Source of the DNA: a virus
Strand: one strand, 5' to 3'
DNA length: 27,258 nt
IMG/VR virus record: IMGVR_UViG_3300025168_000527
Location: 1-27,258 of that record
Shown here: piece by piece, positions 13,241 through 27,073 of the stretch
Layout: the number at the start of each line of letters is the position of its first letter
Position numbering within the stretch: the stretch's first letter is position 1
Made by a program: the position numbers and the translations under genes
Notes under the pieces: model-generated
Databases searched by the model: none
Told to the model about the DNA's origin: nothing
The model's input: the letters and a program-made list of their open reading frames with translations, nothing else

Positions 13241-13256
13241 TCGGAACACGTTCCGA
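13241..13256. repeat. Palindrome TCGGAACACGTTCCGA, copy 1
   Basis: Copy 1 of a 16-bp inverted repeat (7-bp arms, 2-bp centre AC). It ends 13 bp before the -35 box of the plus-strand promoter at 13270-13299. This is the only copy far from a start codon (146 nt). It shares the extended context GGGATATTT with copy 3. Confidence 0.85.
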
Positions 13257-13269
13257 GTTTGATATTTTT

Positions 13270-13299
13270 TTGAGGGCGTATTCGTGGTTTTTATATAAT
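13270..13299 (+). promoter_or_regulatory. Sigma-70 promoter for the 245-aa gene
   Basis: TTGAGG (13270-13275) and a perfect TATAAT (13294-13299) are separated by 18 bp. Transcription would begin about 13306, roughly 95 nt before the ATG at 13402. Copy 1 of the 16-bp palindrome lies just upstream, so a bound factor could activate or repress it. Confidence 0.65.
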
Positions 13300-13401
13300 A
13301 ACAATCAAAGCGAAAGTTTTATTATTTCTTTACATCCATATCAAATGAGAGTATTATTCTTTTATCGGATGCACTTTCGCGGACGATAAAATAAGGAAAA
13401 T

Positions 13402-14139
13402 ATGACAACAACAACAACAAAACAATCTAGCCCTAAGACGGGCAACAAGGCTACTACTAAAGAAATGACTCAACGTGTAAACGCGTCTTATAAAGATATT
13501 GTTAAAAGTATCGAAAAAGACAAATTAAAAGACGTTAAAAAATCTGATGTAGTTAATAGTAGCAATTCAATGGGCGATACTTTAGACAGTCTAGACAATT
13601 GTAGCGAGTCAATTAAAACGCTTGACCAAACAATTGACAAGGCTATCGAGGGCGGTTTATCAATCCAAAAACAAATTGAAGAAATTGTTTTTACCGACAA
13701 GGGAATTGACGATTTTGGCGTTGATACTATCGTTGACTATGCAACGCGGTTAAAGAATCAAACCGAGGGCGTTGCGAGTCATAAAAACTTCAAAAAACTT
13801 GATACCTTAAGGCGTCAATTTTCGAGGGCGTTTGATTGGGCTAAAGAGAACGATTTAGTTACCAATAACGAGCGTATGTCGTTGGTCGGCGTTGGCAAGA
13901 AAATGAAAGTATCACCAGATACTGACAATCCGTACCGCGATCAAACACCAGAAGAAAAAATTGCGAGTGACAAGGCAATTGTTGACGCGGAAAAAAGCGA
14001 AAAACGTGAAACGCTACAAAATCACGTTGATTGGTTCATATCCTTAAGTGACAAGGAATTCGACAAATACGACAAAGAGCGTAAAGAATTCAAGTTAATG
14101 ACCAACGATACCGCTACTAAAAAGACCGTTACAAAATAA
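13402..14139 (+). CDS. Unrecognised early protein (245 aa)
   Basis: A 245-aa charged, mostly helical protein with its own promoter and terminator. AAGGA lies 4 nt before the ATG. It starts with a Thr-rich tail (MTTTTTKQSSPKTGN). A helical section spans about 30-95, then FKKLDTLRRQFSRAFDWAKE (about 128-147), NPYRDQTPEEKIASDKAIVD and a Lys/Asp-rich C-terminus. There is no signal peptide, membrane segment or known catalytic motif. Its codons use CGT, GCG and GGC much more than other genes here, which prefer AGG and GGG; it may have been acquired separately. Position at the start of the early block suggests a host-takeover or regulatory protein, an inference only. Confidence 0.85.
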   Translation: MTTTTTKQSSPKTGNKATTKEMTQRVNASYKDIVKSIEKDKLKDVKKSDVVNSSNSMGDTLDSLDNCSESIKTLDQTIDKAIEGGLSIQKQIEEIVFTDKGIDDFGVDTIVDYATRLKNQTEGVASHKNFKKLDTLRRQFSRAFDWAKENDLVTNNERMSLVGVGKKMKVSPDTDNPYRDQTPEEKIASDKAIVDAEKSEKRETLQNHVDWFISLSDKEFDKYDKERKEFKLMTNDTATKKTVTK

Positions 14140-14158
14140 CAGTCTAATTTAACTAACT

Positions 14159-14184
14159 AAGCCCCGCGAAAGCGGGGTTTTTTT
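14159..14184 (+). terminator. Strong intrinsic terminator
   Basis: CCCCGC pairs with GCGGGG over a GAAA tetraloop, extended by A-U and G:U pairs, and is followed by seven T. This is a textbook Rho-independent terminator that closes the single-gene 245-aa unit. Confidence 0.95.
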
Positions 14185-14275
14185 ACGTCTATTGGAAAGT
14201 ATCTAATAGTATCTCAAAAGCCCGAAAATACCTCAAAAATCAATCTTTTATCAAAACCTTATACTTTGTATCAAT

Positions 14276-14304
14276 TTGACTTTATCGTCCAAAAATGAGA
14301 TAAT
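14276..14304 (+). promoter_or_regulatory. Sigma-70 promoter for the early/replication operon
   Basis: TTGACT (14276-14281) is separated by 17 bp from GATAAT (14299-14304). The stretch 14185-14384 has no gene; it is AT-rich with GTATCT repeated at a 10-bp interval (near 14207) and ATCAA-type repeats, then this promoter and palindrome copy 2. Transcription would start near 14311. Confidence 0.75.
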
Positions 14305-14338
14305 ATAACTATGAATCGGGCTTTACTCGTTTCTATTT

Positions 14339-14354
14339 TCGGAACACGTTCCGA
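14339..14354. repeat. Palindrome TCGGAACACGTTCCGA, copy 2
   Basis: Copy 2, exact. It lies about 28 nt after the predicted transcription start and 31 nt before the ATG at 14385, so it is in the mRNA leader. The stem can grow to 11 bp (ATTT/GAAT flanks with one G:U pair). Confidence 0.85.
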
Positions 14355-14384
14355 GAATCAATCCAATAAAAAGGCGGTTTAATT

Positions 14385-14732
14385 ATGAATAGAAAACAAC
14401 AAATACAATTGAATAGTCAACGGTCAAAGTTGACGTCAATTATTAATGAAACACGTGGAAAGTTTTTCACTGTTAAATTTCATAAAATTGACGGTAGCAT
14501 CCGAAAAATGAATTGTAGAATTGGAGTCCATAAGTTTTTAAAAGGTGGTGAATTATCATACCGCCCAGTGGATAAGCCAAATCTAAGAATCGTTTTTGAT
14601 GTCAAATCTAGTGGCTATCGTACTATTAATTTGGATAAGGTTTTTTATATCAAAACTGGTAGGAGGGCTGCAATTACCTACCTTACCGACCAGTTGATAA
14701 ACGATATGACTCACCATAATTATTATAACTAG
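14385..14732 (+). CDS. SH3-fold small phage protein (115 aa)
   Basis: A 115-aa protein. The core GKFFTVKFHKIDGSIRKMNC followed by RIGVHKFLKGG and YRTINLDKVFYIK fits the small SH3-type beta-barrel proteins common in phage early regions. No enzymatic function is established for them that I know. AAGGCGG lies 8 nt before the ATG. It is the first gene after the promoter at 14276-14304. The last codons are TAT AAC TAG, whose bases also form part of a TTATAACTA sequence like the 3' arm of the RNA elements downstream. Confidence 0.8.
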   Translation: MNRKQQIQLNSQRSKLTSIINETRGKFFTVKFHKIDGSIRKMNCRIGVHKFLKGGELSYRPVDKPNLRIVFDVKSSGYRTINLDKVFYIKTGRRAAITYLTDQLINDMTHHNYYN

Positions 14733-14740
14733 GAGGACCT

Positions 14741-14872
14741 ATGTTGGAATCAATTGTAACAATTTTAGTATTTATTATCTTTGCTATTGGATTAGTTGGT
14801 ATGTGGATTTTTGCGACCACTATGAAAATGGATTACAAGGATAAGAAAGGAAATTATTTAGTTAAAAAGTAA
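14741..14872 (+). CDS. Small membrane protein (43 aa)
   Basis: A 43-aa ORF with an ideal AGGAGG site 5 nt before its ATG. One transmembrane helix covers about residues 4-26 (SIVTILVFIIFAIGLVGMWI). It is followed by a charged tail (KMDYKDKKGNYLVKK), probably cytoplasmic. The function is unknown; early phage membrane peptides often affect the host or block superinfection, which is speculative here. Confidence 0.72.
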   Translation: MLESIVTILVFIIFAIGLVGMWIFATTMKMDYKDKKGNYLVKK

Positions 14873-14901
14873 TTCTCCTAGGCCCGCTATACGGCTGAAT
14901 A

Positions 14902-14954
14902 TTAGCGATTAGTTTTGCCAGTTTCTAATCACTAACTTATACACAAAAACTGGT
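14902..14954 (+). ncRNA. Possible H-type pseudoknot
   Basis: Stem 1: TTAGCGATTAG (14902-14912) pairs with CTAATCACTAA (14925-14935), 11 positions with one C/A mismatch. Its loop contains GCCAGTTT (14917-14924), complementary to AAACTGGT (14947-14954): 7 Watson-Crick pairs plus a G:U. Loop-to-downstream pairing makes a pseudoknot geometry. It lies in a gene-free stretch (14873-15041) just before RNA element 1. No homologue is known to me. Confidence 0.5.
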
Positions 14955-14956
14955 TT

Positions 14957-15023
14957 TAGTTGTAAGAAATATGGGATGTCGCTATTATCCCTAGGGGGCG
15001 GCATTCCATACTTTTTATAACTA
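14957..15023 (+). ncRNA. Double-stem RNA element, copy 1
   Basis: The outer stem TAGTTGTAA (14957-14965) pairs with TTATAACTA (15015-15023): 9 bp with one G:U. A 4x4 internal loop is GAAA/CTTT. The inner stem TATGGGATGTCG (14970-14981) pairs with CGGCATTCCATA (14999-15010): 12 bp with two G:U pairs. The apical loop is 17 nt. It ends 19 nt before the next ATG, just ahead of the purine-rich ribosome-binding site. Confidence 0.75.
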
Positions 15024-15041
15024 GGAAAGGAAGGTAAGCAT

Positions 15042-15272
15042 ATGGATGTAAAACAATTAGTGAAAGGTGAGTGGTATCACATCGATAATGGATTAAAAGT
15101 CCAAGCACAATTACTAGAATCACCCAAGCAAGGTAGGGGATTCAAGAAAGTTGTGCTAATGAAAGTGATGGGCAGCCAAGCGGGATTCTTTGACGAGATG
15201 GGAAGTGTTTACGTTTCGGACATAATCAGACCAATAGGCAACCCAATACCACCAACACCTTTTGGTTTTTAA
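15042..15272 (+). CDS. Hypothetical early protein (76 aa)
   Basis: A 76-aa protein preceded by a GGAAAGGAAGG ribosome-binding site. It starts MDVKQLVKGEWYHIDNG and includes QGRGFKKVVLMKVMG and a proline-rich end (IGNPIPPTPFGF). Predicted beta-strands around WYHIDN and VVLMKVM suggest a small barrel, but no family is recognised. It sits between RNA element 1 and a terminator, so it may be expressed as a separate short unit. Confidence 0.65.
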   Translation: MDVKQLVKGEWYHIDNGLKVQAQLLESPKQGRGFKKVVLMKVMGSQAGFFDEMGSVYVSDIIRPIGNPIPPTPFGF

Positions 15273-15279
15273 CTAGGAT

Positions 15280-15298
15280 TAGGGGCAAAACACCCCTA
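15280..15298 (+). repeat. Hairpin before the 15314 terminator
   Basis: TAGGGG pairs with CCCCTA (6 bp) around a caaaaca loop. It directly follows the stop of the 76-aa gene and is not followed by T residues. It may protect the mRNA 3' end. Confidence 0.5.
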
Positions 15299-15313
15299 CC
15301 CTTACTATCACTG

Positions 15314-15360
15314 CGGGCAAGAAGTCCTCTACAATCGAGGATTTCGAGTCCGTTTTTTTT
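15314..15360 (+). terminator. Intrinsic terminator with two stacked stems
   Basis: Outer stem CGGGC (15314-15318) with GTCCG (15348-15352), a 3x3 internal loop, then inner stem AAGTCCTC (15322-15329) with GAGGATTT (15337-15344), with G:U pairs, followed by eight T. It should end or reduce transcription after the 76-aa gene. Its stem-loop-stem plan resembles the nearby RNA elements. Confidence 0.8.
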
Positions 15361-15385
15361 ATAATTTAACAAAATGAGGTGAAAA

Positions 15386-15571
15386 GTGGAAGAAACTATA
15401 CTAAACACAGAACTGACCAAGGATAACCCTTGGAAAATAATACATCTTTTATCTAAGGAATTGGATAAGAGATTTACTGTTGATGAAATACTAGAAGTTT
15501 GGTACTCTGTTTATGGCAAGGATATGGCAGAGCCTAAATTTATAAACGAACTAAGGCAAAGGATTGCCTAG
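15386..15571 (+). CDS. Hypothetical early protein (61 aa)
   Basis: A 61-aa protein that starts at GTG with GAGGTG 5 nt upstream; no ATG lies in frame nearby. It is helical and acidic, with NPWKIIHLLSKELDKRFTVD and PKFINELRQRIA, resembling a small helix-turn-helix-like fold, but no family is recognised. Its TAG stop is also the first three bases of RNA element 2, so translation to the end would disturb that hairpin. Confidence 0.65.
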   Translation: MEETILNTELTKDNPWKIIHLLSKELDKRFTVDEILEVWYSVYGKDMAEPKFINELRQRIA

Positions 15572-15620
15572 TTGTAAAAACTAAGCCTGATCTTTGGATT
15601 AGGCTTACTTGTTATAACTA
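15569..15620 (+). ncRNA. Double-stem RNA element, copy 2
   Basis: The outer stem TAGTTGTAA (15569-15577) pairs with TTATAACTA (15612-15620). The 4x4 internal loop is AAAC/CTTG. The inner stem TAAGCCTGATC (15582-15592) pairs with GATTAGGCTTA (15597-15607), 11 bp with one G:U and a TTTG loop. The first three bases are the stop codon of the 61-aa gene. It ends 14 nt before the ATG of the Gp88-like gene. Confidence 0.78.
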
Positions 15621-15634
15621 AGATAAGGATAATT

Positions 15635-16288
15635 ATGAATATAGAAAACAATTTGTTTGTGCCATTCAAAACACTGAAGGCAGCCAGAGAGTATGTGGAG
15701 GGATTTTCAGACCCGAAGAAGATGCCTGGCTGGAGTTATGGATTGCCTACGGATATGTGCAAAACTGGGATGATACTAAAAAAGATACCCGCATCTGTAT
15801 GTTCTGATTGTTATGCGGATAAGGGATTTTATACAGTCTACCCAGCAGTTAAGGCTGCACAGTATAGACGTTTGAATAGTATTGATAAGCCAAGATGGGT
15901 TGAAGCGATGATATATGTTATGACTCACGCCAAAGCAATACTAAAGGATAATGTCTTTAGATGGCACGATAGTGGGGATATACAAGGTGTTGAGCATTTG
16001 GATAAGATTGTGCAGATAGCACAAGCAACTCCCAACATACAATACTGGCTGCCCACTAAGGAAAGTGCTTGGATACAAAATTACAATAAGCCTATCCCGA
16101 AAAATCTAGTGATTAGGTTAAGTGGTAGTTTTGTGGATGGCAAACCACCCAAGTATACAAATACCAGCACTGTTGTTAGTAATGAGGATGATGCAACTTG
16201 CAGAGCCTTTGATAATGGTGGTGAATGTGGTGAATGTAGACAGTGTTGGGATAATAGTGTAAAAAATGTAAGTTACTTTAAACATTAA
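15635..16288 (+). CDS. Gp88-like phage protein
   Basis: A 217-aa protein. The N-terminal part has SYGLPTDMCKTG and SVCSDCYADKGFY (cysteines about 42, 56 and 59). The middle has VFRWHDSGDIQGVEHLDKIV and PNIQYWLPTKESAWI. The C-terminus has CRAFDNGGECGECRQCWD (about 190-207). Cysteine-rich proteins with an RxHDSGD motif belong to the Gp88 family first named in mycobacteriophages. The clustered cysteines suggest metal or iron-sulfur binding; the biochemical role is unknown. AAGGA lies before the ATG, right after RNA element 2. Confidence 0.78.
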   Translation: MNIENNLFVPFKTLKAAREYVEGFSDPKKMPGWSYGLPTDMCKTGMILKKIPASVCSDCYADKGFYTVYPAVKAAQYRRLNSIDKPRWVEAMIYVMTHAKAILKDNVFRWHDSGDIQGVEHLDKIVQIAQATPNIQYWLPTKESAWIQNYNKPIPKNLVIRLSGSFVDGKPPKYTNTSTVVSNEDDATCRAFDNGGECGECRQCWDNSVKNVSYFKH

Positions 16289-16297
16289 GGAGGTAGT

Positions 16298-16480
16298 ATG
16301 AAAGTAAGTTTAGAAGAACTTGTTAGTGAGTTCAAGCAAGTCCAAAGGGATATGAAATATCTCGGAGTGGATATATCTGTGGATGAAACTAATAAAATAG
16401 AATTGGAAACTGCAATTGCGGTAAACAATAGACTGATAGATGAGTTTCCATACGCTAGGGATTTATTGGCTGATAGATAA
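16298..16480 (+). CDS. Hypothetical early protein (60 aa)
   Basis: A 60-aa acidic, helical protein with AAGGAGG 5 nt before the ATG. It begins MKVSLEELVSEFKQVQRDMK and ends DEFPYARDLLADR. No motif is recognised; it could be a small dimeric helical bundle. It is closely spaced between the Gp88-like gene and the 97-aa gene. Confidence 0.65.
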   Translation: MKVSLEELVSEFKQVQRDMKYLGVDISVDETNKIELETAIAVNNRLIDEFPYARDLLADR

Positions 16481-16489
16481 GGAGGTAAT

Positions 16490-16783
16490 ATGAGTATAAA
16501 TACTGTACCTTTATGGGGATTTACCATAGTTAACGATGAGGTTGACAAATGGGATATGCCTATTGAGGATTTTTGTACTGTTTTTAATTCAAGTGAGTCA
16601 TTAGCATCCGACTCAGTTGCGGGTGAAAGCAGCTACATATTTAATAACATAGATGAGCGAGATAGACAGGCTGATTTGTGGTCACAACGATTGTATGAAA
16701 AATCAGTGGATAAGGCTGATGATTTGATGGATGAGTATAGAGAGCGTGGGCTTTCACCATCAGATTTCTTTAGGCAAGAGTAG
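16490..16783 (+). CDS. Hypothetical early protein (97 aa)
   Basis: A 97-aa acidic protein with AAGGAGG 4 nt before the ATG. It begins MSINTVPLWGFTIVNDEVDK. A C-terminal DDLMDEYRERGLSPSDFF helix is the most regular part. It is unrecognised. Its TAG stop forms the first three bases of RNA element 3, as in the 61-aa gene with element 2. Confidence 0.65.
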   Translation: MSINTVPLWGFTIVNDEVDKWDMPIEDFCTVFNSSESLASDSVAGESSYIFNNIDERDRQADLWSQRLYEKSVDKADDLMDEYRERGLSPSDFFRQE

Positions 16784-16843
16784 TTGTAAAAACTAAGGGA
16801 TATTTCGGAACACGTTCCGAGTATCCTTTACTCTTTATAACTG
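16781..16843 (+). ncRNA. Double-stem RNA element, copy 3
   Basis: The outer stem TAGTTGTAA (16781-16789) pairs with TTATAACTG (16835-16843), 9 positions with G:U pairs. The 4x4 internal loop is AAAC/CTCT. The inner stem TAAGGGATA (16794-16802) pairs with TATCCTTTA (16822-16830). Its apical part is palindrome copy 3. The first 17 bases, TAGTTGTAAAAACTAAG, are identical to element 2. It ends 12 nt before the methyltransferase ATG. Confidence 0.78.
16805..16820. repeat. Palindrome TCGGAACACGTTCCGA, copy 3
   Basis: Copy 3, exact, placed at the tip of RNA element 3, 36 nt before the methyltransferase ATG. It combines both repeated signals of this region. Confidence 0.88.
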
Positions 16844-16855
16844 GAGGAAAAAAAT

Positions 16856-18004
16856 ATGGATAAAGATAACAATCTAGGCATTAACGTGTGTGCTCTGTTT
16901 GATGGTTCGAGCTGCGGTCAAGTTGCACTCGAAAGAGCAGGGATAAAAGTTAATAATTATTTTGCATCTGAGGTAGACCCTTGGGCTGAGAAGATTACGC
17001 TCAAGAACTACCCCAATACTGTGTGTGTTGGTGATGTGAACTTTGTTAGTGGGATACAACTACCAGATATAGACCTGATCTTAGCGGGTTCACCCTGTCA
17101 AGGATTTAGTTTTGCTGGTAAGCAACTAGCGTTTGATGACCCCAGGTCCGCACTGTTCTTTGAATTTCTTAGAATATTGGATGAGTGTAGGGCATTCAAC
17201 CCTAATGTTAAATTCTTATTGGAAAATGTAAGGATGAAGCAAGAGTATCAAGACATCATCAGTGATTATCTAGGTGTGCAGCCAGTAGCGATAAACTCGT
17301 CACTGGTATCAGCACAAAATAGATACCGTTTGTATTGGTGTAACTGGGATATAACTGAGCCCGAAGATAAAGGCATTCTGTTAAAGGATGTACTTGTTGA
17401 GGGATTTGGTGATAGTGTTGGGGATCAGGGCACAACAGTTAGGCGTACTAATATAGATAAGTCTGCTTGTCTATTGGCTAGGGATTACAAGGGATTTGGC
17501 AACCAAGCAATGACTGGTGTTAGAACTTGTGAACTTAGAGAATATAAGGATGAGTCAGACTGTCACCACGTTGGAACGGCCCTGGATATTAGAGGTAATG
17601 AGAGTATCAAGCGTGTGTATTCGGATACTGGCAAAAGCCCAGCCCTCACTACTATGCAAGGTGGTCACCGTGAGCCTAAAGTATTGGTAGCAAGGATGGT
17701 GGGCAGACGCATCAACCCAGACACAGGCAAGAGGGATGATTATAATACAGACATCACACCCAAGCAGAGGCTTGAGCCCAGAAAGGATGAGAAGTCTGGA
17801 TGTTTGACTACTGTTGAGAAGGATAACTTAGTAGTAGAGAAAGGAACGTATCGCCCACTGCTGCCAATAGAGATGGAGCGATTACAAACACTGCCCGATA
17901 ACTATACTGAGGGAGTGAGCAATACCCAACGTAAGAAGATGTTGGGCAACGGATGGACTGTCGATGTGATAGCCCACATACTAAAACAAGGAGGATTTGT
18001 ATGA
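16856..18004 (+). CDS. DNA (cytosine-5) methyltransferase
   Basis: A 382-aa enzyme that methylates C5 of cytosine in DNA with S-adenosylmethionine. Motif I is ALFDGSSCGQVAL (13-25). Motif IV AGSPCQGFSFAGK (77-89) holds catalytic Cys81. Motif VI is LLENVRM (121-127) and VIII QNRYRLYW (154-161). Motifs IX-X are near the end with EMERLQTLPDNYTEG and GNGWTVDVIAHIL (364-376). The variable target-recognition region lies at about 170-340. The ENVRM and RYRLYW forms recall phage and Dnmt3-type enzymes. No restriction enzyme is encoded nearby, so it probably protects phage DNA or marks it. GGAGG lies before the ATG. Confidence 0.93.
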   Translation: MDKDNNLGINVCALFDGSSCGQVALERAGIKVNNYFASEVDPWAEKITLKNYPNTVCVGDVNFVSGIQLPDIDLILAGSPCQGFSFAGKQLAFDDPRSALFFEFLRILDECRAFNPNVKFLLENVRMKQEYQDIISDYLGVQPVAINSSLVSAQNRYRLYWCNWDITEPEDKGILLKDVLVEGFGDSVGDQGTTVRRTNIDKSACLLARDYKGFGNQAMTGVRTCELREYKDESDCHHVGTALDIRGNESIKRVYSDTGKSPALTTMQGGHREPKVLVARMVGRRINPDTGKRDDYNTDITPKQRLEPRKDEKSGCLTTVEKDNLVVEKGTYRPLLPIEMERLQTLPDNYTEGVSNTQRKKMLGNGWTVDVIAHILKQGGFV

Positions 18005-18138
18005 GCAAGTTGTATAAAATACATAAAGCAAAGAAGAAATCTAGAAAGAAAAGTTCTAGTAGAGAACAAAGAAGGAAGGATGAAAGACTATTAAAAAAAC
18101 AAGCAAGGAGGGATAATGAAAGAATGGAAAGACGATGA
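18001..18138 (+). CDS. Small highly basic protein (45 aa)
   Basis: A 45-aa protein, ATGA overlap with the methyltransferase stop, GGAGG site before the ATG. It is nearly all Lys, Arg, Glu and Ser: KAKKKSRKKSSSREQRRKDE, then KKQARRDNERMERR. This suggests nucleic-acid binding, but such composition is not specific. It overlaps the following gene by 23 nt in another frame. Confidence 0.6.
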   Translation: MSKLYKIHKAKKKSRKKSSSREQRRKDERLLKKQARRDNERMERR

Positions 18139-18361
18139 AGTTAAGATAGCCTGGGGTGTACAAATCAACCCCAGTTATCTAGATGGTATCTATTCAAAGC
18201 CTGATTCCTATAAGAAGACAAGGGTCAGGGATAGGTACGGTAAAATTATGAACCACTTTGATGTGGCTAGACTCAACAGATATAGAACTGAGGCTAGGGA
18301 TAAGTGGCGATTAGAAAATAGGGATACAATTAAAAACTTAAAAGAAGGAGGTGACAAGTGA
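18116..18361 (+). CDS. Hypothetical protein (81 aa)
   Basis: An 81-aa basic protein with AAGGAGG 4 nt before the ATG. It starts MKEWKDDEVKIAWGVQINPS and contains RVRDRYGKIMNHFDVARLNR and YRTEARDKWRLENRD. It is helical in its second half, with no recognised family. Its stop overlaps the next GTG start (GTGA). Confidence 0.65.
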   Translation: MKEWKDDEVKIAWGVQINPSYLDGIYSKPDSYKKTRVRDRYGKIMNHFDVARLNRYRTEARDKWRLENRDTIKNLKEGGDK

Positions 18362-18630
18362 TAACTTTTGATACCCACGCTCTCGATAATAGGATTGATG
18401 AGCGTATTGAAGAGGCTTTTAATATCTGGGATAGGTATGGTAAGGAAGCATTTGATGATGATTACAGGCTTGTGCCAAGAGAGGTATATGACTTGCAAGA
18501 TTGTCATCTGTTAAGTATAATTCAAGAACAACAAGAGCAGATAGCTGAAATCCGCCAGGTGCTGCTGACAAATACAGAGATGACACTAACGATGGCGGAT
18601 AAACTAGGTATGAAACCAGAGGAGGGATAA
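18358..18630 (+). CDS. Hypothetical protein (90 aa)
   Basis: A 90-aa acidic protein starting at GTG, coupled to the preceding stop (GTGA), with AAGGAGG upstream. HALDNRIDERIEEAFNIWDR and LSIIQEQQEQIAEIRQVLLT indicate a helical protein with a short coiled coil at about 53-75. The family is unknown. Confidence 0.65.
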   Translation: MITFDTHALDNRIDERIEEAFNIWDRYGKEAFDDDYRLVPREVYDLQDCHLLSIIQEQQEQIAEIRQVLLTNTEMTLTMADKLGMKPEEG

Positions 18631-18875
18631 TGCCAAATTATAAAGTACAGATAGAATCTGTAGTATCGTACAGTTTTGAAGTAGAGATTGAGGATGCTGA
18701 CAGTGAGGATGAAGCAGAAGCAATGGCTGATGATAATTACTGGCAAGATAAGTATCATAGGGAGGCTCGAAACTCACAGATGCACGATGAGTTTGAGATT
18801 ACAAGTGTTGAGGAGATTATCTATGAGGATGATGCTCTCGATGATGATGATGATTACCCACCAAGGGAGGAATAA
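18630..18875 (+). CDS. Hypothetical acidic protein (81 aa)
   Basis: An 81-aa, very acidic protein; the ATG overlaps the upstream stop by one base (TAATG) with GAGGAGG before it. The N-terminus, MPNYKVQIESVVSYSFEVEI, is a beta-strand pair as in many small phage proteins with a following EDAEAMA-type helix. The tail has runs of Asp and Glu (EDDALDDDDDYPPREE). It may mimic DNA or bind basic proteins; the role is unknown. Confidence 0.65.
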   Translation: MPNYKVQIESVVSYSFEVEIEDADSEDEAEAMADDNYWQDKYHREARNSQMHDEFEITSVEEIIYEDDALDDDDDYPPREE

Positions 18876-18876
18876 T

Positions 18877-19068
18877 ATGGGTGTTATGAAGCAAGCAGCG
18901 ATAGCTGTACAAGGGATGTTAGATGGTGAAGAACCTACTGAGGAACAAGTGATAAATTATATGGTCGAAGAATATATGAAATCACCTCAGTATTACAAAG
19001 AACACAGGGATCAGGAAAAAAAGATTGCAAATGACTTGACAGTTCTTAATTCATCAGCTAAAATTTAA
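18877..19068 (+). CDS. Hypothetical protein (63 aa)
   Basis: A 63-aa helical protein. The ATG at 18877 (GGGAGG 6 nt upstream) is chosen over longer in-frame starts inside the previous gene. It has MLDGEEPTEEQVINYMVEEY and SPQYYKEHRDQEKKIAND. The family is not recognised. It is the last gene before the structured SSB leader. Confidence 0.6.
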   Translation: MGVMKQAAIAVQGMLDGEEPTEEQVINYMVEEYMKSPQYYKEHRDQEKKIANDLTVLNSSAKI

Positions 19069-19080
19069 TTGTTAGTACAA

Positions 19081-19234
19081 ACTAAGATAGTCTAGGGGAT
19101 TTGCCAACTAGCTGACTAGATAGCAAAACTCCTAGACATTCTTAGATAGTCTTAGTAAGAGATACACTGGTTTCCTTCCTTATTTTCCAGTGTATCCCTT
19201 AGTAGGATTACCTACTAATGGGGACCTTCGGGTC
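19081..19234 (+). ncRNA. Structured leader of the SSB gene with four hairpins
   Basis: The gene-free stretch 19069-19262 holds four hairpins in order. (a) GTCTAGGGGATTTGC (19090-19104) pairs with GCAAAACTCCTAGAC (19123-19137), inside an outer ACTAAGA/TCTTAGT pair (19081-19087, 19150-19156). (b) GATACACTGG/CCAGTGTATC (19161-19170, 19187-19196) extends to 13 of 14 pairs. (c) TTAGTAGG/CCTACTAA lies at 19199-19218. (d) GACC-TTCG-GGTC is at 19223-19234, a stable tetraloop hairpin. None has a following T-run, so they are probably regulatory or stabilising rather than terminating. Confidence 0.7.
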
Positions 19235-19262
19235 ATTAATGTTAATGTTACAGGAGTTATAT

Positions 19263-19646
19263 ATGAGTGCTATAAGTTTAGCTGGTAAGGTGGTATTCAA
19301 CCACATTACAACACCCGATGTTTATAAGGGTGATACAAAATATTCTTTGACGATTGCGTTGGATAAGGATAGTAAGAAACTTGCTGAGAAAAGCGGGCTT
19401 AAGACTAGTGAGTATGATGGGGCTACCCAAATTACTTGTAAGCGTAAGTTCGATTTCGGTGCACCTAAAATCTACAACACAGATAAGGAGGAGGTAGGTG
19501 TTGGTCACCTATCACTCTTTGGGGATGAGGTAGTTATGAAGGTGAAGCCTGGTAAGGGAGACTGGGAGGCTTTTGCTTATTTAGAAGCTGTCCGAGTTGA
19601 GGCAAAGGCAGAGGGTCAAGAAGACTACGACCAATCTGACTTTTAA
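19263..19646 (+). CDS. Single-stranded DNA-binding protein (T7 gp2.5-like)
   Basis: A 127-aa protein. The start at 19263 is chosen because GGAG lies 6 nt before it; a longer frame reaches into the hairpin leader. It begins MSAISLAGKVVFNHITTPDV and has TKYSLTIALDKDS (beta strands of an OB fold). The C-terminus is very acidic and ends DYDQSDF, with the terminal aromatic residue that in gp2.5-like proteins contacts polymerase and primase-helicase. It binds displaced single strands during replication. It stands directly before the primase-helicase, the order seen in T7-like modules. Confidence 0.85.
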   Translation: MSAISLAGKVVFNHITTPDVYKGDTKYSLTIALDKDSKKLAEKSGLKTSEYDGATQITCKRKFDFGAPKIYNTDKEEVGVGHLSLFGDEVVMKVKPGKGDWEAFAYLEAVRVEAKAEGQEDYDQSDF

Positions 19647-19668
19647 CTAGCGACAGGCATTGTTAGTT

Positions 19669-19695
19669 GGGGCAGTCACTTATGGCTGCCCTTTT
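19669..19695 (+). terminator. Attenuating terminator after the SSB gene
   Basis: GGGCAG (19670-19675) pairs with CTGCCC (19686-19691), followed by TTTT. The stem is short and the T-run only four long, so it probably ends a part of transcripts. That would raise SSB over the enzymes encoded downstream. Confidence 0.6.
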
Positions 19696-19713
19696 AAATC
19701 AAGGGAGGAAGAT

Positions 19714-21381: not shown

Positions 21382-23092
21382 TTGTGACATCGAGACAGAT
21401 GGCATAGATGCCACCCAAGTTTGGTGCGTTGCTGTTCATAACATAGACACAGACCAGTGTATTACATTTGCTGGTCCTTGTCTTAATCTATTCAAACCTT
21501 GGATGGAGTCAGAGGCTGATTGCCTGATCTTTCATAATGGTATATCTTTTGATGTGCCAGTGCTTGAGAGATTATTAGACATAGACTTTAGTGAGATATT
21601 AATAGAGGATACGTTGGTGATGAGCCAGCTATACAAACCTAGGCTTGATGGTGGTCATTCACTGTCAGCCTGGGGTGATAGGCTTGGCTTTGCTAAAGGT
21701 GACTATGATGATTGGTCTAAGTTTACTTTAGAGATGTTGGACTATTGTATTAGAGATACTAAGGTTACTACTAAATTATATAAGTACCTTCTTGCAAACA
21801 AACTAAGTGAGGATGCAAAAGGACTTGAGTACAAAACAAAAGAACACTGTTCATTACAAGAGAGAACTGGATGGTTCTTTAACATCAAAGGTGCTATAGA
21901 ATTGTTAGTAGAAATAAACGATGACCTAAGACTTGCAGAGGAAGAGGTGCACAAGACATTCGTTCCTCTTGCAGTATGGAAATCTAAGAAGCCAGTAGAA
22001 AATAGGTTTACTAAGAGAGGTCAGAGAACTAAACACTATCAGACAGAGGTGGACCTGGCGTGTCATACTAATGATGATGGTGACTATGGATACTGGACCT
22101 ACCCCGAATTGAACTTAGGCAGTAGGCAGCAAGTAGGCAGACACCTTATGCACTATGGATGGAAACCTACTGTGTTTACTGACACTGGACTACCAAAGGT
22201 TGATGAGTCTACACTCAAGGATGTAGATATACCAGAGGCTAAGATTATTGCTAGGTATCTAATGCTGCAGAAACGCCAGGGCCAAGTGAGTAGCTGGGTT
22301 GATGAGTACAATTATGATACTGGAAGAATACATAGTAGAGTACATACTATGGGCACTGTGACACACCGTATGTCTAGTAGTAACCCGAACTTACAGCAAG
22401 TTACTGCAAGTAACAAGGAGTACGGTACTGAGATGCGTAGCCTGTTCACTGTTCCAGAAGACAAAGTAATTGTTGGTGCTGATTTATCTGGATTAGAATT
22501 AAGATGTTTAGCACATTATATGAAAGATGCAGGGTATACTGAAGAGATTTTAAGTGGTGATATACATACAGCCAATCAGAAAGCTGCTGGTCTAAAGACT
22601 AGAGATGAGTCAAAGCGTTTCATCTATGCCTATCTTTATGGCGGAGGAGATGATTTAATAGGTAAGATATGTGGAGGAGGTAAAAAGTTGGGCAAGAAAA
22701 TTAAACATCAGTTCCTATCTAACACACCAGCATTAGCTGTGCTTAGAAAGAAGATTGAGCACGCATCAAAGAAGGGATGGATCAGGACACTTGATGGTCG
22801 CAGAGTGTATGTTCGTAGCCCACATTCAGCACTTAACTTTTTATTGCAGAGTGCTGGCTCTATTATAGCTAAGAGGGCTTGGGTTATATTCCACACTCTT
22901 GCTAGTGAATATGATTACAAACAGCTCGGTGTTATACACGATGAGATACAGATAGAGTGTGACCCAGCAATTGCGGATGAGATTGGTAGCCTGGTTGTTG
23001 AGGCTATGGAACTAACAACAAATTATTATCACCTAAATTGTCCCATCACTGGTGAGTACAAGGTAGGAACAAGCTGGAATGAAACACACTAA
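21368..23092 (+). CDS. DNA polymerase, family A
   Basis: A 574-aa replicative polymerase. The start at 21368 has GGGAG six bases upstream; an ATG one codon earlier is equally in frame but closer to the site. The 3'-5' exonuclease is intact: CDIETDG (Asp7, Glu9), FHNGISFD (55-62) and DYCIRDT (125-131). Polymerase motifs are A GADLSGLELR (370-379), B RDESKRFIYAYLYG (412-425) and C GVIHDE (521-526). The Tyr420 position corresponds to the residue that makes T7 polymerase accept dideoxynucleotides. No DnaJ-like zinc motif is seen, unlike reports for HMO-2011. It is shorter than T7 polymerase (about 700 aa). Confidence 0.94.
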   Translation: MRTFSCDIETDGIDATQVWCVAVHNIDTDQCITFAGPCLNLFKPWMESEADCLIFHNGISFDVPVLERLLDIDFSEILIEDTLVMSQLYKPRLDGGHSLSAWGDRLGFAKGDYDDWSKFTLEMLDYCIRDTKVTTKLYKYLLANKLSEDAKGLEYKTKEHCSLQERTGWFFNIKGAIELLVEINDDLRLAEEEVHKTFVPLAVWKSKKPVENRFTKRGQRTKHYQTEVDLACHTNDDGDYGYWTYPELNLGSRQQVGRHLMHYGWKPTVFTDTGLPKVDESTLKDVDIPEAKIIARYLMLQKRQGQVSSWVDEYNYDTGRIHSRVHTMGTVTHRMSSSNPNLQQVTASNKEYGTEMRSLFTVPEDKVIVGADLSGLELRCLAHYMKDAGYTEEILSGDIHTANQKAAGLKTRDESKRFIYAYLYGGGDDLIGKICGGGKKLGKKIKHQFLSNTPALAVLRKKIEHASKKGWIRTLDGRRVYVRSPHSALNFLLQSAGSIIAKRAWVIFHTLASEYDYKQLGVIHDEIQIECDPAIADEIGSLVVEAMELTTNYYHLNCPITGEYKVGTSWNETH

Positions 23093-23094
23093 AG

Positions 23095-23110
23095 TCGGAA
23101 CGTGTTCCGA
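23095..23110. repeat. Palindrome copy 4 (TCGGAACGTGTTCCGA)
   Basis: Copy 4, present in the reverse orientation so the centre reads GT. It begins 3 bp after the polymerase stop and ends 31 nt before the nuclease ATG. The short gap 23093-23140 contains nothing else but the ribosome-binding site. Confidence 0.85.
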
Positions 23111-23140
23111 AAAAGAATTTTAATAAGAGAGGAGTAGACG

Positions 23141-23947
23141 ATGAAGTCTATCAACACAGTAGTACAAGATGTATATGATTTAATGAAGTCTAAGGATTAT
23201 GATGGAGACTTGAATGCAATAGCTATGCAAGCTGGTAGGGAGGTTGAGATTGCTCTCAAGGATGCCTTTACCCCAAGAGAAGACAACCGAAATCTAAGGA
23301 TGTCATCTCTAGGTAAGTGTGAGAGAGCACAGTGGTATAACTACAAGGGGTACAAGCCAGAAGAAATAAAAGGTGAGGTATACCTAACTTTCTTACAAGG
23401 TCACATACTGGAGGCTGTGCTTGTTGCTTTGCTCAAGCTGTCAGGTCATACAGTAGAAGACCAACAAAAGAAACATACACTAGAAGGTGTTAATGGCTCA
23501 CAAGATTGCACGATAGATGGTGAACTGGTGGACATTAAGACAGCAAGTGCTTGGTCCTGGGATAATAAGTTCCAAGAGACTGGACTTACTGACGATGCCT
23601 TTGGATATATTAAACAACTATCTGCTTATGGAAAGGCAGACAAAAGAAAGAAAGGATACTTCCTTGCTTTCAACAAGAACAAGTCAACACTCAAGCTATG
23701 TGAACAGCCACTGGAGCAAGACATAGATACTTTTATTGTTGACTTAAAAGAGAAGATGGAATCAGATACACCACCTATGAGACTGGCTAATAATACAACT
23801 TGGAACAAAGCCAAGACAGAAGAGAAGCTATGTATGACGTGTGCATTCTGTGGGTTTAAAGAGGATTGCTACGGTAGTCTGGAGGCTAGACCTATACCAT
23901 CTGGTAAAATAACTAACTACTTTGTATCTAGTGGAGCTAACTTTTGA
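23141..23947 (+). CDS. Cas4/RecB-like PD-(D/E)XK exonuclease
   Basis: A 268-aa nuclease. MSSLGKCERAQWYNYKG (54-70), LQGHILEAVL (85-94; Glu91) and GSQDCTIDGELVDIKTAS (119-136; Asp122, Asp131, Lys133) form the PD-(D/E)XK active site. Four cysteines in CMTCAFCGFKEDC (231-243) resemble the Fe-S cluster of Cas4 and AddB. Members degrade DNA ends, here probably trimming host or phage DNA for recombination and nucleotide supply. GAGGAG lies before the ATG. In phage, this gene commonly follows the polymerase. Confidence 0.86.
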   Translation: MKSINTVVQDVYDLMKSKDYDGDLNAIAMQAGREVEIALKDAFTPREDNRNLRMSSLGKCERAQWYNYKGYKPEEIKGEVYLTFLQGHILEAVLVALLKLSGHTVEDQQKKHTLEGVNGSQDCTIDGELVDIKTASAWSWDNKFQETGLTDDAFGYIKQLSAYGKADKRKKGYFLAFNKNKSTLKLCEQPLEQDIDTFIVDLKEKMESDTPPMRLANNTTWNKAKTEEKLCMTCAFCGFKEDCYGSLEARPIPSGKITNYFVSSGANF

Positions 23948-24108
23948 AACAACTGCCTGAACTGAAGGCATACATCGCAGCAACGTATGATGTATGCCTT
24001 ATCTGTGATGAATTAGAAATTGAACCCGAAGAATTACTTGATGCTTTTGAAAAGAGACTAATAGAAAAGCGAGACAGATTTCTTGAGGAATTTGAGGAGA
24101 GTTATTGA
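23944..24108 (+). CDS. Hypothetical acidic protein (54 aa)
   Basis: A 54-aa ORF starting at TTG, overlapping the nuclease stop (TTGA), with GTGGAG upstream. It is helical: KAYIAATYDVCLICDELEIE then LLDAFEKRLIEKRDRFLEEF. Its stop overlaps the next ATG (TGATG). The family is unknown. Coding is supported by both overlaps and the filling of the gap. Confidence 0.6.
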   Translation: MKQLPELKAYIAATYDVCLICDELEIEPEELLDAFEKRLIEKRDRFLEEFEESY

Positions 24109-24311
24109 TGGACTATCTAAGTCTGAGTGTAGCTTTGATATTGCTTGGTGCTGGTATTATTTTTTACACCAACAAGCAAGCATATGAAAAAGGAATTACT
24201 GATGCTGTGCTGATGCACAGAGAAGGTAGACTAAAGTATAAAGATTATTATGATGATGATGGAGACCCGATGGTTGACATACAAATTGAACCAATAGATG
24301 ATGAAGAATAA
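24108..24311 (+). CDS. Small membrane protein (67 aa)
   Basis: A 67-aa protein starting MDYLSLSVALILLGAGIIF, one transmembrane helix at about 3-21. It is followed by AYEKGITDAVLMHREGRLKY and an acidic tail (YYDDDGDPMVDIQIEP). This wording recurs, from memory, in small proteins of marine phages. GAGGAG lies 8 nt before the ATG. The function is unknown. Confidence 0.68.
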   Translation: MDYLSLSVALILLGAGIIFYTNKQAYEKGITDAVLMHREGRLKYKDYYDDDGDPMVDIQIEPIDDEE

Positions 24312-24441
24312 ACCACACCCTATAGTTAATAAACTTATGCACTCTGTTAGAAATCACAGAATGTGGTCACCTAAAGTATTTTTAAACAAAAAGAAAGAAC
24401 AAAAAAAGAGAGGAGATTATCTTGAACAAACTACCAAATGA
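24301..24441 (+). CDS. Small basic protein (46 aa)
   Basis: A 46-aa ORF overlapping the end of the previous gene by 11 nt and the ribonucleotide reductase start by 20 nt. MKNKPHPIVNKLMHSVRNHR and FLNKKKEQKKRGDYLEQTTK show a Lys/Arg-rich protein like the small basic peptides often encoded before nucleotide-metabolism genes in T7-like marine phages. No ribosome-binding site is strong. The call is moderate. Confidence 0.5.
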   Translation: MKNKPHPIVNKLMHSVRNHRMWSPKVFLNKKKEQKKRGDYLEQTTK

Positions 24442-26389
24442 TTACCAAAACTTTATAGCTCTTAGCAGATATGCTAGGTGGCTACCTGAAAAGAAAAGAA
24501 GAGAGACCTGGGAAGAGACTGTTGCTAGGTACTTTGATTTTATGGAAGAACACTTAAAAGAAAACACTGAGTATGAGCTCACATCAAAAACTAGGAAAGA
24601 ATTAGAGAGTGCAGTGGTTAACCTAGAGGTTATGCCCAGTATGAGAGCCTTAATGACTGCGGGTAAGGCATTAAAAGATAACAACATAGCTGGATACAAC
24701 TGTGCCTATCTAAGTGTTGACCACTGGAAAGCATTTGATGAATGTTTATATATCCTTATGCACGGTACTGGTGTAGGATTCAGCGTTGAGCGACAGTTCG
24801 TTAGCAAGTTGCCCGACATACCAACTGAGATGATGGATGTTGAAGATGTTATTGTTGTGCAAGATTCTAAGGAAGGATGGCAGTCAGCATTCCGTAAACT
24901 AATTACCTATCTATATAATGGAGAGATTCCAAGCTGGGACTTCTCTAAGGTAAGACCAAAAGGTTCTAGACTAAAGACATTCGGTGGTAGAGCCAGTGGT
25001 CCAGAACCCTTAATAGATTTATTTTACTTCACTACTAACATATTTAAAGAGGCTGGTAGTAAGTTAACTTCTTATGAATGTCACCGACTAATGTGTAAGA
25101 TTGCAGAGGTAGTTGTAGTGGGTGGTGTTAGACGAAGTGCCCTGATCTCTCTATCTAATTTAACTGATGAGCGTATGCGTAATGCTAAGAGTGGTAAGTG
25201 GTGGGCAGATACACCTGAGATGGCACTAAGTAACAACAGTGTATGCTACACAGAGAAACCAGACATAGGAATATTTATGAAGGAGTGGCTATCACTGTAT
25301 GAATCTAAGTCTGGTGAGCGTGGTATCTTTAATAGAGAGGCTGCAAAGAAACAGGTAAAGTTTGCTACTAATGGTAGACGTAGCACCGAGCACGAGTTTG
25401 GTTGTAATCCTTGTAGTGAAATTATACTAAGAGATGGACAGTTCTGTAATCTAACTGAGGTTGTGGTGAGAGCAGAGGATACTCAAAAAGACATTACTCG
25501 TAAGGTTAGGTTAGCTACCATACTAGGCACATTCCAATCATCCCTTACAAACATCAGAAGATTACGCCCTAAGTGGGTGCATAATACAGAAGAAGAAGCA
25601 CTGCTCGGAGTTAGTTTAACTGGTATAATGGACAACAGTTTTATGAACGGCAGTAGTAATGACAGAGGACACTATGGTAAGAAGTCTTTGCCCGATTTTC
25701 TTCTTGGTCTTAAGTACCAATCTGTTTCTGTAAACAAAGAGTGGTCAGCACATCTTGGTATCAACCAGTCTGCGGCAACCACAGCAATCAAACCAAGTGG
25801 TACAGTCAGCCAGTTAGTTGACAGTGCCAGTGGCATACACACCAGGCATAATGATTACTACTTACGTAGAGTCAGAGCAGATGCCAAAGACCCAATAGCA
25901 CAACTTATGGAAGATCAGGGCATCCCTTGTGAGCCTGATGTTATGAAACCTAATAGTGTTAAGGTCTTTACATTCCCTATGAAAGCACCAGAGGGTGCAG
26001 TTCTTAGGAATGACAGGAGTGCTATTGAACAGCTAGAGCTGTGGCTTATGTATCAAAGATACTACTGTGAGCACAAGCCAAGCGTTACTGTTAGTGTAAG
26101 AGAACACGAGTGGATGGAAGTAGGTGCGTGGGTATACAAACACTTTGACAAAGTTAGTGGTGTTAGTTTCTTACCACACTCTGACCATTCATACCAACAA
26201 GCACCTTATGAAGACTGCACTAAAGCAGAGTACACAAGACTAGTTAAGAAGATGCCTAAGTTTGTTGACTGGAATTTGATTAGTGAGTATGAATTAACAG
26301 ACCAGACTATAGGTACTAAGACATTAGCCTGTACTGGTAATGTGTGTGAGCTTGTGGATTTAACTGAAGAGGAGATGGAAACAGAATGA
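24422..26389 (+). CDS. nrdJ: Class II (B12-dependent) ribonucleoside-triphosphate reductase
   Basis: A 655-aa monomeric enzyme that makes dNTPs using adenosylcobalamin. The start is TTG 24422, with GAGGAG 6 nt upstream. The radical cysteine is in CNPCSE (Cys331, with Asn329 and Glu333). Cys94 (GYNCAYLSVD) and Cys342 form the redox pair; the distance 331-342 equals that of the Lactobacillus enzyme. The C-terminal CTGNVC (637-642) delivers electrons. The protein appears complete with no inteins. It lets the phage supply its own DNA building blocks and does not need oxygen. Confidence 0.94.
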   Translation: MNKLPNDYQNFIALSRYARWLPEKKRRETWEETVARYFDFMEEHLKENTEYELTSKTRKELESAVVNLEVMPSMRALMTAGKALKDNNIAGYNCAYLSVDHWKAFDECLYILMHGTGVGFSVERQFVSKLPDIPTEMMDVEDVIVVQDSKEGWQSAFRKLITYLYNGEIPSWDFSKVRPKGSRLKTFGGRASGPEPLIDLFYFTTNIFKEAGSKLTSYECHRLMCKIAEVVVVGGVRRSALISLSNLTDERMRNAKSGKWWADTPEMALSNNSVCYTEKPDIGIFMKEWLSLYESKSGERGIFNREAAKKQVKFATNGRRSTEHEFGCNPCSEIILRDGQFCNLTEVVVRAEDTQKDITRKVRLATILGTFQSSLTNIRRLRPKWVHNTEEEALLGVSLTGIMDNSFMNGSSNDRGHYGKKSLPDFLLGLKYQSVSVNKEWSAHLGINQSAATTAIKPSGTVSQLVDSASGIHTRHNDYYLRRVRADAKDPIAQLMEDQGIPCEPDVMKPNSVKVFTFPMKAPEGAVLRNDRSAIEQLELWLMYQRYYCEHKPSVTVSVREHEWMEVGAWVYKHFDKVSGVSFLPHSDHSYQQAPYEDCTKAEYTRLVKKMPKFVDWNLISEYELTDQTIGTKTLACTGNVCELVDLTEEEMETE

Positions 26390-26544
26390 AATATATATTA
26401 TTGGTATTAGTATTACTACTGACAAGTTGTAGTGTTATGCAAGATAAGATGGATTTGATGAAGTCAGAACAATTAGACAACACACTATGTTGTGTTCCAG
26501 ACCCAGACTTTCCACACTCTTGTGGTGGATGGGAATTATGTTAA
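26386..26544 (+). CDS. Small lipoprotein (52 aa)
   Basis: A 52-aa protein; ATGA overlap with the reductase stop. MKYILLVLVLLLTSCSVMQD is a type II signal sequence with lipobox LTSC (Cys15). The mature part has five more cysteines (CCVPD, PHSCGGWELC), unusual for so small a lipoprotein and suggesting disulfides in the periplasm. It may be the outer-membrane spanin or an exclusion lipoprotein. GAGGAG lies about 10 nt before the ATG. Confidence 0.72.
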   Translation: MKYILLVLVLLLTSCSVMQDKMDLMKSEQLDNTLCCVPDPDFPHSCGGWELC

Positions 26545-26555
26545 GGTGGAGGACT

Positions 26556-26675
26556 ATGAATATAATAAAAAGAATTTTAATCTACAGTGCTTTTGTATCA
26601 TCAATAGTTTCTGCAGGTTGTATGGTTTATGTTGTTATGTGGCTTGAGGCTCTTAGAAAAGGTTGGTTAGTTTGA
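26556..26675 (+). CDS. Small membrane protein (39 aa)
   Basis: A 39-aa ORF with GGTGGAGG 3-5 nt before the ATG, chosen over a longer frame that overlaps the lipoprotein. It has a basic start (MNIIKRILIYS) and a hydrophobic stretch through AFVSSIVSAGCMVYVVMW, one transmembrane helix. The C-terminus is RKGWLV. It stands between a lipoprotein and a holin-like gene, so a lysis role is possible. Confidence 0.6.
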   Translation: MNIIKRILIYSAFVSSIVSAGCMVYVVMWLEALRKGWLV

Positions 26676-26755
26676 TAGACTTTACAAAAGACTCAGAGTA
26701 CATAAGGATGTATGGTAAGAAGGGCGGAGATATGTTTAACTTTAAAGGAGTAAAG

Positions 26756-26995
26756 ATGTTAGATAAAATACTAAAAGGTGCTGATGGTGCGATTGACGTT
26801 GGCATAAAATTAATCAGCTTATCAATTATATTACAGGTTGTATTTGGTAGTAAAGTAGCGTTCCTAACTGGAAATGTTATTGGTTCTATACTAGATATAG
26901 TTTGGACACTCGGTAACGCTGGGCTTGCAGGCATTATCGCTGCTGTTCTAATCTGGAAGTTGCTTGACAAAGATGTCACGAGTGGCGGAAAGTAA
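26756..26995 (+). CDS. Putative holin-like membrane protein (79 aa)
   Basis: The start at 26756 is chosen because AAAGGAG lies 5 nt before it; in-frame starts upstream at 26732 (GGAG 2 nt away) and TTG 26672 (overlapping the preceding stop) would add 8 or 28 residues. The protein has two hydrophobic segments (ISLSIILQVVFGSKVAFL at about 20-37 and GLAGIIAAVLIWKLL at about 57-71) with a basic start (MLDKILKGAD) and a charged end. Two transmembrane helices and small size fit class II holins; several staggered starts could give long and short forms. The role is an inference. Confidence 0.6.
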   Translation: MLDKILKGADGAIDVGIKLISLSIILQVVFGSKVAFLTGNVIGSILDIVWTLGNAGLAGIIAAVLIWKLLDKDVTSGGK

Positions 26996-27008
26996 ACAAG
27001 CTAAAAAC

Positions 27009-27045
27009 ACTTGGGGTCTTGTCCGTTTGGATAGGACTTCCAAGT
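27009..27045 (+). ncRNA. Double-stem hairpin before the DUF3310 gene
   Basis: The outer stem ACTTGG (27009-27014) pairs with CCAAGT (27040-27045). A one-base/two-base internal loop follows. The inner stem GTCTTGTCC (27016-27024) pairs with GGATAGGAC (27029-27037), 9 bp with two G:U pairs and a GTTT loop. G:U pairs that keep the stem intact favour an RNA role. It is followed 12 nt later by palindrome copy 5. Confidence 0.65.
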
Positions 27046-27057
27046 TACATAAAAAAC

Positions 27058-27073
27058 TCGGAACACGTTCCGA
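27058..27073. repeat. Palindrome TCGGAACACGTTCCGA, copy 5
   Basis: Copy 5, exact, 24 nt before the ATG at 27097. The region 26996-27096 has this and the double-stem hairpin and no convincing gene. Confidence 0.85.

Follow-up and report, generated by a model that had tools for sequence, protein, structure and literature searches.

Dispersed palindromes that co-vary with the first early gene of a tailed phage are probably operators of the regulator it encodes

Introduction

The lambdoid regulators CI and Cro are phage-encoded and act on palindromic operators, which lie at the regulator's own gene and at the early promoter. In phage lambda, the product of a first early gene, N, is paired with boxB, a short palindrome dispersed in leaders, and among the lambdoid phages N and boxB co-vary. 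In the cluster A mycobacteriophages (L5, Bxb1 and TipsytheTRex), stoperators are present as many copies of a short site, placed at promoters and in operon gaps; between phages, the site sequence and the immunity repressor diverge together, and one site adjoins the repressor gene (PMC6550527, PMC9283540). Temperate phages are thus already known to have repressors of the immunity type that act on dispersed operators, and our literature search found the stoperators and nothing on the palindromes of the phage group described here.

We analysed a window of 27,258 nt (the whole 27-kb stretch of DNA under study) from a tailed phage, referred to here as W. Its leftward genes, read from the translations, comprise TerS, TerL, portal and structural-looking genes. 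The rightward genes comprise ORF1 (a 245-aa orphan), an SH3-like gene, GP88, a DNA methyltransferase, a gp2.5-like SSB, a primase/helicase, a DNA polymerase, a Cas4-type exonuclease and a ribonucleotide reductase. Since the best phage-record matches of the polymerase and TerL, mostly marine phages, reach only about 40-52% identity, W has no close isolate.

Results

One palindrome recurs in the intergenic sites of the early half

The palindrome TCGGAACACGTTCCGA is present in five exact copies in the window (O1 to O5, Table 1), as a preliminary description of this DNA had reported. At O4 the plus strand reads TCGGAACGTGTTCCGA, which is the identical duplex in reverse orientation. No further match was found anywhere in the window at up to three mismatches, the backwards pattern of TCGGAACACGTTCCGA had no match there, and 100 dinucleotide shuffles of the window gave a mean of 0.04 matches, against the five observed. 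It is also the sole recurrent palindrome in the window with arms of at least 7. All five copies are intergenic and lie in the rightward (early/replication) half, which is about 87% coding by our own gene calls, so that five of five intergenic positions would be expected by chance with a probability of about 4e-5. The leftward virion block holds no copy, again in agreement with the preliminary description, and the same is true of its claim that four copies stand shortly before a start codon and the remaining one beside a promoter: copies 2-5 precede the next start by 30, 35, 30 and 23 nt, and copy 1 is 145 nt upstream of the ORF1 ATG and 37 nt upstream of a TATAAT. The wider context proposed for copies 1-3 held in part, the G after the palindrome being present in all three and the TATTT before it in copies 1 and 2, with TATT only in copy 3.

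Table 1. Features of the window and palindromes of its relatives
Feature	Position in window, or relatives	Strand	Basis
Operator O1, TCGGAACACGTTCCGA, 5' of the ORF1 transcription unit	13241..13256	+	exact copy; syntenic in relatives
Candidate promoter P1, TTGAGG-18-TATAAT	13270..13299	+	consensus match and alignment only
Candidate second ORF1 promoter P2, TTTACA-17-TATTAT	13329..13357	+	consensus match only
ORF1, 245 aa, proposed operator-binding regulator, first early gene	13402..14139	+	co-variation with palindrome
Intrinsic-terminator-like hairpin ending the ORF1 unit	14159..14180	+	similar terminators after ORF1 in most relatives
Promoter-like site P3, TTGACT-17-GATAAT, ahead of early/replication operon	14276..14304	+	recognisable in relatives
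Operator O2, 34 nt past the P3 -10	14339..14354	+	exact copy
First gene of the proposed controlled operon, SH3-like/WYL_2-like, 115 aa	14385..14732	+	family match
Operator O3, in-operon, ahead of methyltransferase gene	16805..16820	+	exact copy; dyad lengthened by flanks in several types
DNA methyltransferase gene, behind O3	16856..18004	+	family match
Operator O4, reversed duplex, between DNA polymerase stop and exonuclease gene	23095..23110	-	exact copy
Cas4-domain exonuclease gene, behind O4	23141..23947	+	family match
Operator O5, 23 nt before next gene start	27058..27073	+	exact copy
Palindrome TTGTAACGYGTTACAR	G003		
Palindromes TCGGAATTATTCCGA, TCGGAATAGTTCCGA	G004, L026, L029		
Palindrome CTCCGAAGTCCTCGGAG	G005, G020		
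Palindromes TCGTAACGCGTTACGA, TCGTAACGTGTTACGA	G006, L041		
Palindrome TCGTATCGGATACGA	L034		
Palindrome CAAGCATTTAATTGCTTG	G007, L082, L071		
Palindrome ACGCATTTAAATGCGT	G008; L068 with outer bases		
Palindrome ACACTTCTTGAAGTGT	L073, L189		
Palindrome CACGCAATTWAATTGTGTG	L188		

The gene behind O5 matches nucleotide-kinase-type PHROGs and is incomplete at the window end. Two other repeats were seen among the rightward genes. An 18-nt repeat (TACTTTTTATAACTAGGA-like) stands ahead of several genes (14717-14734, 15009-15026, 15606-15623), with the related CTCTTTATAACTGGAGG downstream of site 3, and looks like a recurrent ribosome-binding leader; an inverted repeat of 34 nt with 79% complementarity (19137-19170 / 19187-19220) precedes the SSB gene.

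Relatives carry other palindromes at the same sites

A search with TerS gave 80 relatives, in which recurrent palindromes were then sought without using the motif. A few viral contigs have the exact 16-mer at these very sites; several single-copy matches to it in other viral contigs look unrelated, judged by their flanks only. The preliminary description had held that absence of the motif from the same sites of close relatives would speak against it. TCGGAACACGTTCCGA itself is indeed often missing there, but another palindrome stands in its place: many relatives have a different recurrent palindrome at the syntenic positions, within conserved flanks (Table 1). Each virus uses one palindrome sequence at nearly all of its own sites, and about 12 operator sequences were found among viruses whose TerS is at least 85% identical. 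O1 has syntenic counterparts of other sequence in relatives, located about +355 to +398 relative to the start of TerS, and across palindrome types the flanks remain constant at site 3 (ctaagggatat before, tatcctttactctttataact after) and at site 4 (gaaacacacta before, ttttaataagagaggag after).

Two genomes deviate from uniformity. G006 (type E) is heterotypic at a single site, site 3 (3300-3700 relative to the start of TerS), where it has the type-C operator TCGGAATAGTTCCGA, perhaps left behind by recombination. In G002, site 4 has been lost via an insertion; both cases look like incomplete exchanges. The last late gene of G002 (minus strand, +14001 to +14471 relative to the start of TerS) begins like the corresponding gene of G003, with the N-terminus MACGTEIVPGY, and that of G004 begins similarly; the C-terminus in G002, ParB-nuclease-looking by eye, is different. 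More distant relatives have two-copy palindromes, GAATGATTATCATTC and AGTATATATATACT, near +525 in G025, L050 and L021 (and at +4152 in G025 and L050) and at two sites in G019, L201, L205 and L209; these may be similar systems with other regulators.

Of the genes tested, only ORF1 tracks the palindrome

Among the genes tested, only the identity of ORF1 follows the palindrome type; that of TerS, GP88, methyltransferase and SH3 does not. G005 and L029 have different palindromes and are identical in TerS and methyltransferase (100% each) and nearly so in SH3 (99%), with 12% identity in ORF1. Likewise, the palindromes of G002 and G004 differ, and these two genomes share 98% identity in TerS, 99% in methyltransferase, 91-99% across most shared early/replication genes and 26-27% in ORF1. 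W and G002 have the identical palindrome, with identities of 87% (TerS), 68% (SH3) and 64% (ORF1). The Mantel correlation between ORF1 and palindrome was r=0.69 (p=2e-4) in the first set (n=12), r=0.93 (p=0.007) in set G (n=6) and r=0.83 in all 19 genomes, where the p-values are rough guides, as the lineages share ancestry and both the palindrome types and the measure of similarity were chosen once the data had been seen. The other genes gave 0.09 (TerS), -0.07 (GP88), 0.19 (methyltransferase) and 0.35 (SH3) in the first set, and the ORF1 signal survived control for each of them in partial Mantel tests. Within the window, ORF1 alone of the genes common to G002 and W groups G002 with W, L016 and G006.

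A first-gene family that looks unrelated to ORF1 (A7, in G026, G028 and L222-L226) has an operator of its own, AATATTGGCGCGCGCTAATATT, in 3-4 copies, and L076 combines a first gene similar-looking to A7 with AATTAGCGACGCCAATTT repeats. No ORF1-like gene was found in L182, where the palindrome is absent at site 4. TerS, which has an HTH-looking stretch, was rejected as the cognate protein, being at least 85% identical across phages with different palindromes.

The palindromes are more readily explained as duplex DNA than as RNA

The preliminary description had offered an RNA 5' hairpin as one reading. We examined whether the palindromes could act in the transcript, as hairpins that serve a translational regulator or, in the manner of nut/boxB, an ORF1 antiterminator. 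Copies 2-5 do fall in mRNA leaders, most deviations in the arms retain a G-U pair (G002 site 3, G003, G005, G020, L068, L073, L189), and the stem is lengthened in several types by the flanks of site 3 (16795-16830; GGGATAT / GTATCC), which may also act as an attenuator. However, reversed sites have an asymmetric centre that exactly reverse-complements the one found at the other main sites (AC/GT, AGTCC/GGACT, TTA/TAA, TAG/CTA), for which an RNA loop gives no reason. Site 4 of W, L016, G004 and G005 shows this, as does site 2 of L029; in L071 the duplex of L082 and G007 is turned round at every site, and in L188 sites 14048 and 1246 are exact reverse complements. Since the reversed sites carry a reverse-complemented asymmetric centre, a DNA duplex, and not an RNA loop, would be what is read. 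Furthermore, there are A-C mismatches on the transcribed strand at L188 site 14048 and L191 site 1807, which, together with the reversed sites, weaken the G-U bias as a sign of RNA; O1 lies upstream of P1, the nearest promoter-like site; and the sequence common to all copies is that of the stem, which RNA-binding proteins read poorly. Hence, recognition at the DNA level appears clearly likelier than at the RNA level, and the hairpin explanation is unlikely.

The layout points to negative control

The direction of control was judged from the layout of the sites. In most relatives a terminator-like hairpin comes after ORF1. A P3-like promoter stands next (19/19 genomes), and O2 lies 24-61 nt past its -10 in these 19 genomes. 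The P3-like promoters match 9-11 of 12 consensus bases, a score attained by the shuffled same region in 0.5-20% of cases; single cases seem weak, and it is the recurrence at one place that would carry the argument. At sites 3 and 4 and the site before ssb, no promoter above chance was found.

An operator past the -10 suggests a block to transcription, and the reverse arrangement at P1 raises the question of whether ORF1 might instead be a DNA-binding activator or a dual regulator. The centre of O1 is some 57 bp upstream from the presumed P1 start, the position of a class I activator. The P1 TATAAT is conserved in relatives, its -35 is poor and not conserved, and in most A-E types a TATAAT without a conserved -35 is found at a similar distance from O1. 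Against an activator stand the position of O2, which follows the -10 of a sigma-70-like promoter in every one of the 19 genomes, the lack of a promoter at sites 3 and 4, and the second O1 copy of G020, which lies over the -35 zone and ends 13 nt before the TATAAT. Activation is, in our judgement, slightly less probable still than the RNA hairpins, and repression by ORF1 would account better for the layout.

ORF1 is an orphan without a recognisable DNA-binding domain

ORF1 has no Pfam family at E<=1, no NCBIfam match and only insignificant PHROGs matches; none of these searches revealed a recognisable DNA-binding domain or a match to any HTH family. Its AlphaFold2 model is a mostly helical core (mean pLDDT 70, with low confidence for residues 1-57), for which Foldseek gave no informative match (best E 0.31) and VIA-align a best Z of 6.1, to unrelated helical repeats. 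The net charge of ORF1 homologues ranges from -29 to +20. By hhalign, the first-gene families A2 and A4 are related (E 6.5e-16), and the analogous families A5, A6 and A7 gave no demonstrable mutual homology; the model for A6 is of poor quality (mean pLDDT 59). Searches of 50,697 phage records and of GTDB genomes yielded no ORF1, those of GTDB genomes and plasmids no TerS, and no tyrosine integrase (PF00589) was found in 28 relative records, many of which are fragments.

With no DNA-binding domain visible in ORF1 and the genome end outside the window, the sites could belong to a host regulator or to another phage protein linked to ORF1. The preliminary description had left both a phage and a host dimeric regulator in play. 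A host factor is unlikely because the palindrome co-varies with a phage gene, and this co-variation supports the phage regulator well. The dozen or so operator sequences among viruses of nearly the same TerS, and the failure of any other gene common to G002 and W to track the type, make a host or second phage protein very improbable. It is barely credible that ORF1 reads the palindromes as centromere-like sites or as marks on the genome, whether for parS-like partition, packaging or exclusion: the dispersed 16-bp palindromes do share the form of parS, but every site is in an operon leader, the virion block has none, copies at operon heads follow the logic of transcription, and ParB/parS itself was rejected, ORF1 having no ParB match.

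Discussion

Conserved sites, palindromes replaced within conserved flanks, co-variation with ORF1, a consistent orientation pattern and a recurrent terminator/promoter layout are found together in these phages. Based on these sequence features, the palindromes are probably operators, read as duplex DNA by a sequence-specific regulator that the phage itself encodes. This regulator would be the product of ORF1, the first of the rightward genes, and its likeliest action would be negative. ORF1 would bind the palindromes, probably as a dimer. Binding to O1, at its own promoter region, would lead to autoregulation, and binding to O2, past the P3 -10, would block or damp transcription of the early/replication operon. 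At O3-O5, in operon gaps without promoters of their own, ORF1 may stop the elongating polymerase in a stoperator-like manner. Such control could lower the expression of early/replication genes at a later stage of infection, exclude another phage of its own type, or both. Under selection to evade the regulators of other phages, ORF1 and all of its sites may then change together.

We put forward more tentatively that this phage clade, which has no detectable integrase, possesses a homotypic repressor-operator immunity built on an undescribed all-helical DNA-binding protein. Exchange of the ORF1 cassette might be followed by rewriting of the dispersed operators in place, yielding many mutually blind types among co-occurring marine phages. 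If true, viruses presumed to be lytic would also compete through private regulatory codes, the same logic as in temperate phages being seen here with about 12 specificities in viruses without a sign of lysogeny or a bacterial-genome match. They would also provide, for a protein without a known fold, a natural collection of regulators with their matching operators. The model is directly testable in G002/G004 and G005/L029, pairs that are near-isogenic for the genes tested and differ in regulator and operators.

Regarding known systems, the GAAC and GTTC half-sites of group A recall LexA boxes. LexA was rejected, as the preliminary description had rightly anticipated: the spacing is 2 (GAAC-AC-GTTC) and not 4, there is no GAAC-N4-GTTC, CTGT-N8-ACAG or GTTC-N7-GTTC, and other relatives lack GAAC/GTTC. 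Lambda N/boxB has in common with ORF1 a first early gene and dispersed leader palindromes that co-vary. In contrast to boxB, the duplex is conserved here in both orientations and not as a loop on the transcribed strand, ORF1 has 200-310 aa and is not a short arginine-rich protein, and O1 lies upstream of the nearest promoter. The lambdoid CI/Cro system is similar in its palindromic operators, its co-diversifying regulator and the placement of operators at its own gene and at the early promoter, but here there is no HTH_3/repressor match (Pfam, E<=1) and no divergent cI/cro switch, sites also lie within the operon and no integrase was found.

As in the cluster A mycobacteriophages, one site is found multiply, at a promoter (O2 at P3) and in operon gaps (O3 and O4, without promoters), it diverges together with the regulator and it lies beside the regulator gene. 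Cluster A stoperators, however, are asymmetric sites of 13-14 bp, numbering 20-30 per genome and oriented with transcription, whereas the sites described here are palindromic, about 3-5 per genome and in both orientations, some against transcription. The cluster A repressor is an HTH-containing monomer and ORF1 has no recognised HTH; cluster A phages are temperate, with an integrase or parABS, whereas the 28 records searched here, many of them fragments, yielded no tyrosine integrase. Hence, the comparison suggests that the ORF1 system works like the mycobacteriophage stoperators but is not a member of that family.
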